Source: Sedimenticola thiotaurini (GTDB lineage Bacteria > Pseudomonadota > Gammaproteobacteria > Chromatiales > Chromatiaceae). From it: a stretch of 64,000 bases of DNA. The position numbers and the translations under genes are program-made. The notes beneath the pieces were generated by a model. The model was not told the DNA's origin, ran no database searches, and was given only the letters and a program-made list of their open reading frames with translations. The DNA lies in contig DRKP01000137.1 of the NCBI GenBank assembly GCA_011051715.1, forward strand, positions 1 to 64,000, given 5' to 3'. Numbering within the stretch: position 1 is the stretch's first letter; every line of letters begins with the position of its first letter. Positions 2,583 to 29,040 of this stretch are shown piece by piece.

Positions 2583-2601
2583 GGTTCAGTCTCCGAAAAA
2601 A

Positions 2602-2722
2602 CCGAGCGCCGTTGTCCGATCAAGACCCCGAGCCTGGCCCGACCACTCGATCCGTTTTCCCGTGTTGCCAATGGCGGTACGCGAAGAAAGGATCGAGTGG
2701 TCCGGTTGCAGCGCTCCTCGGG
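2602..2722 (-). ncRNA. SAH riboswitch (ahcY leader)
   Basis: The minus strand holds the conserved SAH-riboswitch blocks in the right order: CCGAGGAGCGCTGCAACC (2722 downward), GGCCAGGCTCGG (2639-2628) and CAACGGCGCTC (2613-2603). GAGCGC and GCGCTC form the closing helix, while CCGAG and CTCGG form the pseudoknot. A 13-bp perfect arm pair (2641-2653 with 2690-2702) forms an extended variable hairpin. The aptamer ends in a six-T run and a GGAG Shine-Dalgarno about 10 nt before the ahcY start. The family is known to turn ahcY on when SAH binds. Confidence 0.93.
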
Positions 2723-2810
2723 ATGTTGGGTGTCGATTCCGTGGTCTGCCCCGGTGGAGCGGTACCGCGCCGGAGATGTCGGGAGGGCCAGTGGCGGGCT
2801 CTCTCCCAGG

Positions 2811-2840: not shown

Positions 2841-4010
2841 CTATTTCAATCCTGCCGCGTCGCGCAGCATCTCGGCCCTGTCGGTCCGCTCCCAGGTGAA
2901 CTCGGGCTCCTCCCGCCCGAAGTGGCCGTAGGCGGCGGTCTTGCGGTAGATGGGGCGGATCAGGTCGAGCATCTGCAGGATGCCGTAGGGGCGCAGGTCG
3001 AAGTGCTCGCGCACCAGTTCCACGATCTTCTCGTCGGCGATCCGGCCGGTGCCGAAGGTCTCCACCGAGATGGAGGTGGGCTCGGCCACGCCGATGGCGT
3101 AGGAGACCTGGATCTCGCAACGGTCGGCAAGTCCGGCGGCAACGATGTTCTTGGCCACGTAGCGGCCGGCATAGGCGGCGGAACGGTCCACCTTGGACGG
3201 GTCCTTGCCGGAGAAGGCACCGCCACCGTGGCGTGCCGCACCGCCATAGGTGTCGACGATGATCTTGCGCCCGGTCAGACCACAGTCGCCCACCGGGCCG
3301 CCGATGACGAAGGAACCGGTCGGGTTGATGTGGTAACGGGTATCCCTGGTCAGCCACTCCTCCGGCAGCACCGGCTTGATGATGTTCTCCATCACCGCCT
3401 CCTGCAGGTGGGCGTACTCGATGCCCGGGTCGTGCTGGGTGGAGAGGACCACCGCGTCGATGCCGACGATGGCGTTGTCCCTGTAGTGGAAGGTGACCTG
3501 GCTCTTGGCGTCCGGCCGCAGCCAGGGCAGCACCTTCTCCCGGCGCATCTCCGACTGGCGCTGCACCAGGCGGTGGGCATAGGTGATGGGCGCCGGCATC
3601 AGCACGTCGGTCTCGTTGGTGGCGTAGCCGAACATCAGCCCCTGGTCACCGGCCCCCTGTTCCTCCGGTGCGGAACGGTCCACGCCCTGGGCGATGTTGC
3701 TCGACTGCTTTCCGATCAGCGACATCACGGCGCAGGTGCTGCCGTCGAATCCCACCTCCGAGCTGGTATAGCCGATCTCGCAGATCACCTTGCGTACCAG
3801 TTCGTCCAGATCCACCCAAGCCTCGGTGGTGATCTCGCCACCGATGATGACGGCACCGGTCTTGACCATGGTCTCGCAGGCGACCCGGGCATGTTCCGGG
3901 TTGGGGTCCTGGCTCAGGATGGCATCCAGCACGGCATCGGAGATCTGGTCGGCCATCTTGTCCGGATGGCCCTCGGATACGGATTCGGAGGTAAAGAGGT
4001 GTTCGCTCAT
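2841..4010 (-). CDS. metK: S-adenosylmethionine synthetase
   Basis: This enzyme makes SAM from methionine and ATP in the cytosol. The 389-residue length fits the family (about 384). The protein begins with the canonical [18 protein letters not shown]-type N-terminus (ATP-binding HPDK). GAGDQG near residue 117 and the glycine-rich GGGAFSGKD near residue 260 are the two family signatures. The ATG at 4010 is fixed by this conserved N-terminus, although there is no strong Shine-Dalgarno. A good promoter lies 150 bp upstream, and an intrinsic terminator hairpin sits between promoter and start, implying attenuation. It heads the metK-ahcY-metF group. Confidence 0.98.
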
Positions 4011-4027: not shown

Positions 4028-4068
4028 AAAAATGAAAAACCCGCCTGGGCTTCAGCTTCGGCGGGTTT
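4028..4068 (-). terminator. Intrinsic terminator in metK leader (possible attenuator)
   Basis: In the metK sense direction AAACCCGCC pairs perfectly with GGCGGGTTT (9 bp, 14-nt loop; plus-strand arms 4037-4045 and 4060-4068). It is followed by TTTTT-CA-TTTTT. The hairpin ends only about 20 nt before the metK start and lies downstream of the metK promoter. It would therefore stop transcription of metK itself unless overridden. An upstream GCGGG (4120-4116) could pair with CCCGC of the 5' arm as an antiterminator. Confidence 0.7.
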
Positions 4069-4161
4069 CAAGAATCCTGAATTCCACACCTCGCTTTAGC
4101 CGCACTTGTTACGCGCCCGCAATCTGAGTTCAAATCGGCGCGATCCCTCGATTCCTGGGGC

Positions 4162-4189
4162 ATTATGCGGGCGTGGCCCCGTTTGTCAA
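4162..4189 (-). promoter_or_regulatory. metK promoter
   Basis: On the minus strand a perfect TTGACA (4189-4184) is followed after 16 bp by CATAAT (4167-4162). This predicts a transcript start near 4155 and a leader of about 145 nt before the metK ATG. Confidence 0.75.
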
Positions 4190-4320
4190 TCGGAATCGGA
4201 GACGCCCTCCCGCCGCGCCGATGACGCCGTCCCGACCCGGTGCTGGCACGGGCCCCTGCCTGTGGGTACACTTGGCCGTCGATTTTCCATGTTCAGCGTC
4301 GACACGCGAGGAGGAGGACG

Positions 4321-4875
4321 ATGGTATCACTGGAGACCCCGGTCTGTGACTTCGGCCGCCCGGCCATCGATTTCGCCCTGCCGGGGGTGGACGGCCGCAC
4401 CTGGACCCTGCAGGAGTGCCGCGGTGAGAAGGGCCTGCTGGTGATGTTCATCTGCAACCACTGCCCCTACGTCAAGGCGGTACGGGACCGGATCGTGCGC
4501 GATGCCCGGGAACTGAAGGAGCTGGGGGTCAACAGCGTCGCCATCATGTCCAACGATCCGGCCGACTATCCCGAGGACTCGTTCGACAACATGAAGCGGG
4601 TGGCAGAGGAGTACGGTTTTCCGTTCCCCTACCTCTATGATGAGACCCAGGAGGTGGCGCGGGCCTATGGCGCGGTCTGCACCCCCGATTTCTTCGGTTA
4701 CAACGCCGATCTGAAACTGCAGTACCGTGGCCGCCTCGACGCCAGCCGCAAGGAGGCGGCGCCGCCGGACGTGCGTCGCGACCTGTTCGAGGCGATGAAG
4801 CAGGTGGCCGAGACCGGCGAGGGGCCGCGGCAGCAGATCCCCAGCATCGGCTGCTCCATCAAATGGAAGGAGTGA
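4321..4875 (+). CDS. Thioredoxin-fold protein (AhpC/TSA-like, CxxC)
   Basis: This 184-residue protein has an AhpC/TSA-like thioredoxin fold. A CNHC motif (Cys45 and Cys48), followed by PYV, sits after the first core strand (LLVMF). The conserved cis-Pro region is read as CTPDFFGY. The family is common in Proteobacteria and usually annotated only as thioredoxin family protein; a thiol oxidoreductase or peroxidase role is inferred. The ATG at 4321 was chosen over upstream starts because GAGGAGGAGG lies directly in front of it. It is divergent from metK and followed by a strong terminator, so it is probably a single-gene unit. Confidence 0.85.
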   Translation: MVSLETPVCDFGRPAIDFALPGVDGRTWTLQECRGEKGLLVMFICNHCPYVKAVRDRIVRDARELKELGVNSVAIMSNDPADYPEDSFDNMKRVAEEYGFPFPYLYDETQEVARAYGAVCTPDFFGYNADLKLQYRGRLDASRKEAAPPDVRRDLFEAMKQVAETGEGPRQQIPSIGCSIKWKE

Positions 4876-28628: not shown

Positions 28629-29040
28629 GGGAGTCGGCCGGATGATCGCTGCCACGGTTCCACCATGGCGGAGGAAAGTCCGGGCTCCACAGGACAGGAT
28701 GCCAGGTAACGCCTGGGGGGCGCGAGCCCACGGAAAGTGCCACAGAAAACAGACCGCCCGACCACTCTGCCGGCGGTTCATCCGGTGGTCTCATCCACCG
28801 GTCGAAGCCGGCGAGTGGTCGGGTAAGGGTGAAAAGGTGCGGTAAGAGCGCACCGCGTCGCTGGTAACAGCGGCGGCAGGGTAAACCCCATCCGGAGCAA
28901 GACCAAATAGGGGGACGCTGGCGCGAGCCTGAGGTGTGGTCCGCACTGTCCCCGGGTAGGTCGCTCGAGGCGTCCGGCGACGGGCGTCCCAGATGAATGA
29001 TCATCCCCGACAGAACCCGGCTTACAGGCCGGCTCCCACT
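28629..29040 (+). ncRNA. rnpB: RNase P RNA, class A
   Basis: This is the catalytic RNA of RNase P, which matures tRNA 5' ends. The conserved core GAGGAAAGTCCGGGCTCC lies at about 28671, GGTAAGGGTGAAAAGGTGCG at about 28823, and the 3' AGATGAATGATCATCC and ACAGAACCCGGCTTACAG blocks end the gene. The 5' GGGAGTCGGCC pairs with the 3' GGCCGGCTCCC to form helix P1, which sets the ends. The length is about 410 nt. A TATTAT at 28615-28620 is a good -10; the -35 is weak. The 3' end runs into a T6 tract (29040-29045). Confidence 0.97.

Follow-up and report, generated by a model that had tools for sequence, protein, structure and literature searches.

The leader of metK in this Sedimenticola thiotaurini genome probably carries a SAM-II riboswitch aptamer joined to a transcription terminator, an arrangement in which high SAM would shut metK off. 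Judged by its sequence, the leader is an unannotated member of the known SAM-II class with an apparently new target; SAM binding, termination and its direction are inferred. That aptamer and terminator, together with an antiterminator supplied by the 3′ strand of the aptamer, control metK as a SAM-dependent OFF switch is, in our judgment, very probable. A preliminary description of the window (the whole 64,000-nt stretch of DNA that was analysed) had proposed a SAM-pathway attenuator of an unrecognised kind at this site; the attenuator and the pathway hold up, while the class turns out to be SAM-II. The features of the locus are collected in Table 1.

Table 1. Features of the metK leader and its neighbourhood (window positions).
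Feature	Position	Strand	Remarks
-35 box TTGACA	4184-4189	-	promoter kept in metK leaders of relatives
-10 box CATAAT	4162-4167	-	16-nt spacer from -35 box
Putative transcription start	near 4155	-	deduced from promoter spacing
SAM-II riboswitch aptamer (candidate)	4087-4144	-	model R1, 72.2 bits, E 2.6e-18
P1 5′ strand CGCGCC	4137-4142	-	outermost P1 pair covaries
L1 third strand GAUUUG	4131-4136	-	triplex uridines around SAM; role from SAM-II/SAM-V structures (PMC6061858)
P2b pseudoknot 5′ strand UUGC	4119-4122	-	invariant
P1 3′ strand GGCGCG	4112-4117	-	pairs with P1 5′ strand
GGCUAAA	4095-4101	-	P2b 3′ strand and putative SAM-contact bases U4098, A4097, A4095; 5′ part of proposed antiterminator
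Proposed antiterminator hairpin	4046-4104	-	4101-4098/4051-4048, 4095-4093/4056-4054, 4090-4087/4063-4060, 4085-4084/4065-4064
Intrinsic terminator	4028-4068	-	stem 4068-4060/4045-4037, U-tract 4039-4028
metK, methionine adenosyltransferase (regulated gene)	2841-4010	-	NCBIfam metK TIGR01034, 621 bits
SAH riboswitch preceding ahcY, separate from metK leader	2597-2725	-	RF01057, 57.2 bits, GA 37

Identification and structure of the aptamer

At Rfam gathering thresholds, the only matches in the window are the SAH riboswitch before ahcY and an RNase P RNA (bacterial class A, 28630-29040 on the + strand, 335.5 bits). Under a permissive Rfam search, RF00521 (SAM_alpha, SAM-II) matches the metK leader at 4073-4151 (-) with 26.6 bits, below the gathering score of 36 bits, which is a scoring threshold and not a structural feature; it is because the score falls just under this cut-off that standard annotation overlooks the leader. 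Genome-wide, matches to RF00521 at E ≤ 0.001 are confined to the metK and metZ leaders. We also used a covariance model, R1, whose training set of 35 aptamers was drawn entirely from the sulfhydrylase (metZ-type) cluster in other families and so included no metK leader and no sequence from the window's own family. In the window's genome, R1 gives 72.2 bits to the metK leader (E 2.6e-18) and 62.6 bits to the metZ leader, the next site, a non-met leader, reaching 11.8 bits. The metZ aptamer, the second in this genome (G000:C112:348-404 (+), locus L002), precedes a gene for O-succinylhomoserine sulfhydrylase and also scores below the Rfam cut-off. The earlier view that the metK leader lies outside every known SAM or SAH class was therefore wrong: R1, with its gamma- and betaproteobacterial members, places it in SAM-II, though it stays under the Rfam cut-off. 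SAM-V, SAM/SAH, SAM-III (SMK) and SAM-VI are SAM sensors too, and SAM/SAH and SMK also control metK; none of these classes matched the metK leader in the Rfam search. Matches to rnk_pseudo, CRISPR-DR28, Burkholderiales-2 and sR33 in the leader region were at chance level and were discarded.

The leader resembles SAM-II (RF00521) in its H-type pseudoknot with helix P1, an AUUUG third strand and a P2b helix of UUGC with GC(U)AAA, and also in its wider layout, with a promoter close upstream of P1, a terminator past the aptamer and methionine or SAM genes downstream (PMC1273637, PMC2258182); it differs in its score under the Rfam cut-off, its short P2a and its target, metK. AUUUG and GCUAAAG are each found in 62/62 entries of the metK set, which after the addition of named genomes holds 50 distinct aptamer sequences. 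P1 comprises 6 bp in the window, and its outermost pair is formed in 160 of 208 sequences (shuffle mean 92.8, maximum 114) by five pair types (AU, CG, UG, UA and GC), with a P1 covariation score equalled by none of 500 shuffles. The covariation bears on the outer P1 pair alone, because the other P1 pairs and the whole of P2b hardly vary; P2b is present and invariant in the 62 metK entries, an invariance that lends no covariation support. The preliminary description would have been contradicted by leaders lacking a conserved structure ahead of the hairpin; the comparison instead shows a conserved aptamer there. P2a is short and poorly defined, with a possible pairing of CUC (4128-4126) and GAG (4092-4090) that is not kept in all leaders; this helix has 5 bp in 60% of SAM-II aptamers and 2 bp in the crystallised one. 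Folded as a single sequence, the leader has a weak z-score (-1.69), as expected for a pseudoknot, and the value was therefore set aside.

The SAM-V binding site is nearly superimposable on that of SAM-II (PMC6061858), and we mapped the SAM contacts onto the solved SAM-V structure (PMC6061858) by a visual alignment guided by the conserved motifs. In this alignment, U4098 would face the SAM adenine, U4121-A4097-U4133 would surround the sulfonium, and A4095 would sit by the amino-acid end. The bases aligned to known SAM-contacting positions (4134-4132 and 4098-4095), which comprise a bulged U, the A of the U-A-U triple, an A by the aminoacyl end and the U's of the third strand, are all present. 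An unrelated attenuator, whether of a new class or dependent on a protein or a leader peptide, might resemble SAM-II by chance and would fit the RF00521 score under the Rfam cut-off, but the E value obtained with the independent model R1, the presence of every contact base and the occurrence of the element before other met genes (below) make this reading very improbable.

Terminator, proposed antiterminator and predicted switch

The strong promoter noticed earlier ahead of metK is confirmed by comparison: the two boxes (4189-4162) match the consensus at 11 of 12 positions, and at least 9 of 12 matches are found in 39 of 42 metK leaders, a median of 9 nt upstream of P1, versus 4% of shuffles. 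Past the aptamer, AAACCCGCC (4068-4060) and GGCGGGTTT (4045-4037) form a 9-bp stem with a 14-nt loop, followed by the U-tract TTTTTCATTTTT (4039-4028), which ends 17 nt upstream of the metK ATG, so that the 9-bp terminator with a T-rich tail is located where the preliminary description had put it, about 20 nt before the start codon. Counted singly, terminator-type hairpins are not significant here (1 found versus 1.6 expected in 2.9 kb), and since a lone hairpin is no better than chance, the case for an attenuator rests on comparison: a terminator-like hairpin lies within 110 nt of the aptamer in 42/42 metK leaders, against a mean of 8.0 and a maximum of 12 in shuffles. Its position between the aptamer and metK is conserved in these 42 leaders, in keeping with metK as the target. 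The same conservation speaks against the hairpin being the ordinary terminator of the divergent thioredoxin-like gene (ORF 4240-4875, +) and not of metK; the hairpin is partly symmetric across both strands, as such a role would allow, but relative to that gene it is upstream and on the other strand, and the long T-tract belongs to the metK strand, which leaves this reading a close to negligible probability.

The proposed antiterminator is the MFE structure of the transcript that ends before the terminator 3′ arm, and P1 is retained in it. GGCU, AGC, GGUG and GG of the aptamer tail pair there with AGCC, GCU, CGCC and CC of the terminator arm and loop. In the 42 metK leaders, the expected number of GCUAAAGC bases paired with the terminator arm and loop is 6.2, versus 3.9 after shuffling of the region (Wilcoxon p 7.5e-12, in a test that counts related leaders as independent), and the same pairing amounts to 6.8 versus 4.0 in 88 other leaders; for the window itself the values are 6.0 and 3.0, and none of 60 shuffles reaches 6.0. 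As an antiterminator the preliminary description had put forward GCGGG (4120-4116), competing for the CCCGC arm (4065-4061). The two are indeed complementary, but this pairing has a probability of about 0 and is 13.7 kcal/mol worse than the MFE, and the conserved alternative uses GCUAAAGC.

Sequence and folding thus provide both a terminator downstream of the aptamer and a mutually exclusive antiterminator. Because the GGCUAAAGCG strand would serve at once as P2b, as the site of SAM contacts and as part of the antiterminator, SAM binding and antitermination should exclude each other, and an OFF switch is therefore predicted. RNA polymerase would start near 4155 and make the H-type pseudoknot aptamer (4144-4087) first. 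When SAM is scarce, the aptamer 3′ strand GGCUAAAGCGAGG would pair with the 5′ arm and loop of the terminator as the antiterminator, and metK would be transcribed. When SAM is plentiful, it would be bound between L1 and P2b, and GCUAAAG would be held in the pseudoknot; the terminator arm would thereby be free, the hairpin 4068-4037 could form and transcription would stop about 20 nt before metK.

The energy models, which were used without pseudoknot and without SAM, predict the terminated form as the MFE of the full-length ligand-free transcript, and the ON state would therefore depend on cotranscriptional folding. This ligand-free fold also fits the idea that the SAM-II aptamer is real while the leader acts mainly by constitutive attenuation or small-RNA release, the riboswitch affecting metK little, as does the metA terminator after a SAM-II aptamer in S. 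meliloti, which gives rise to small RNAs and lowers expression in each of the two media used (PMC9373788). We regard such a role as unlikely for metK, given that the conserved complementarity of the aptamer 3′ strand to the terminator arm implies selection for switching.

Distribution and relation to catalogued elements

The metK leaders of the window's family share the core GCGCCG-AUUUGA..CUCAGAUUGCGGGCGC..AAAUGC-GGCUAAAG, with a promoter just upstream and a terminator downstream, and three of them (L084, L085 and L086), that of the Solemya elarraichensis gill symbiont (39.9 bits) included, score above the Rfam cut-off. Among the named genomes, a Chromatiales MAG (metK, L243) and Malikia spinosa exceed the RF00521 cut-off as well. 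Within the family, R1 has matches in 73 of 210 genomes and RF00521 in 60 (5 above cut-off); in the gammaproteobacterial class (GTDB, betaproteobacteria included), RF00521 has matches in 136 of 369 genomes, and because only 30 of the 136 exceed the Rfam cut-off, standard annotation misses most SAM-II there. The downstream genes, whose clusters were named from representatives and recognisable N-termini, belong mainly to a cluster containing MetZ-type sulfhydrylases (97 loci) and to MetK (46 loci, a few of which are one site counted twice); metX, metF, metN and others make up smaller groups. A scan of named genomes with a 33-nt core pattern returned at least 120 stretches, including Sedimenticola hydrogenitrophicus, Ca. 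Sedimenticola endophacoides and Solemya gill symbionts, Accumulibacter, Undibacterium, Hydrogenophaga and Malikia, and also alphaproteobacteria, e.g., Microvirga and Pseudogemmobacter. Besides metK, SAM-II aptamers precede metZ, metX, metA, metH and metF; in betaproteobacteria they are found before metX and metZ.

Genes named by N-terminal sequence only follow the core in further genera: metH-like genes in Accumulibacter and Undibacterium (including L224, L229, L235, L242 and L257) and metA-like genes in Leucothrix and Cocleimonas (L237 and L222). Tandem aptamers, with a terminator after the first, are seen at L116 (near 328 and 441), which precedes metK, at L087, at L094 and at L108, which precedes a 398-aa protein without Pfam or NCBIfam match. 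The second aptamer of L087 is followed by a hairpin able to cover the ribosome-binding site, and the arrangement suggests that tandem aptamers, at least at L087, may form a transcriptional and translational pair.

SAM-II has been described in alphaproteobacteria and a small number of further lineages, and a terminator often accompanies it (PMC1273637); its occurrence in gammaproteobacteria is sporadic, and its predominant use of terminators in alpha- and betaproteobacteria is unusual (PMC2258182). One survey lists SAM_alpha in Rhizobiales and Rhodobacterales only, with metY as the core target next to metA, metX, metC, hom and metW (PMC4239095), and metK did not turn up as a SAM-II target in the open-access literature searched. 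The metXZ element of betaproteobacteria, in which regions 1 and 4 pair, regions 2 and 6 form a pseudoknot and a terminator follows before metX or metZ (Leyn et al. 2014, PMC4239095), was published as a new element and not as SAM-II; a comparison by text description, not by alignment, argues strongly that it is SAM-II. Bp2_287 (RF02424), a "Burkholderia sRNA" catalogued on the antisense strand, lies antisense to SAM-II matches in 13/13 of its matches in 114 genomes, all of them below its own cut-off and the window included (4034-4172 (+), the strand opposite the metK leader), and probably represents a SAM-II leader recorded on the opposite strand. We consider it likely that SAM-II is widespread and mostly unannotated in gamma- and betaproteobacteria, that the SAM synthetase gene is a main target, that one switch, with the SAM-binding strand also serving as antiterminator, is shared and that the metXZ element is SAM-II, as is the Bp2_287 sRNA. 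Two separately catalogued RNA elements would thereby merge into SAM-II.

Predicted RNA control of the SAM cycle

On its strand, metK is followed in order by the SAH riboswitch, ahcY and metF, and in several relatives this neighbourhood has an SAH riboswitch too. No MetJ repressor was found in this genome. The switch proposed for the metK leader is simple and testable, one strand serving both for ligand binding and as the antiterminator. Through it, SAM would feed back directly on its own synthesis, and with SAM-II on metK and the SAH switch on ahcY, both ends of the SAM cycle would be under RNA control.
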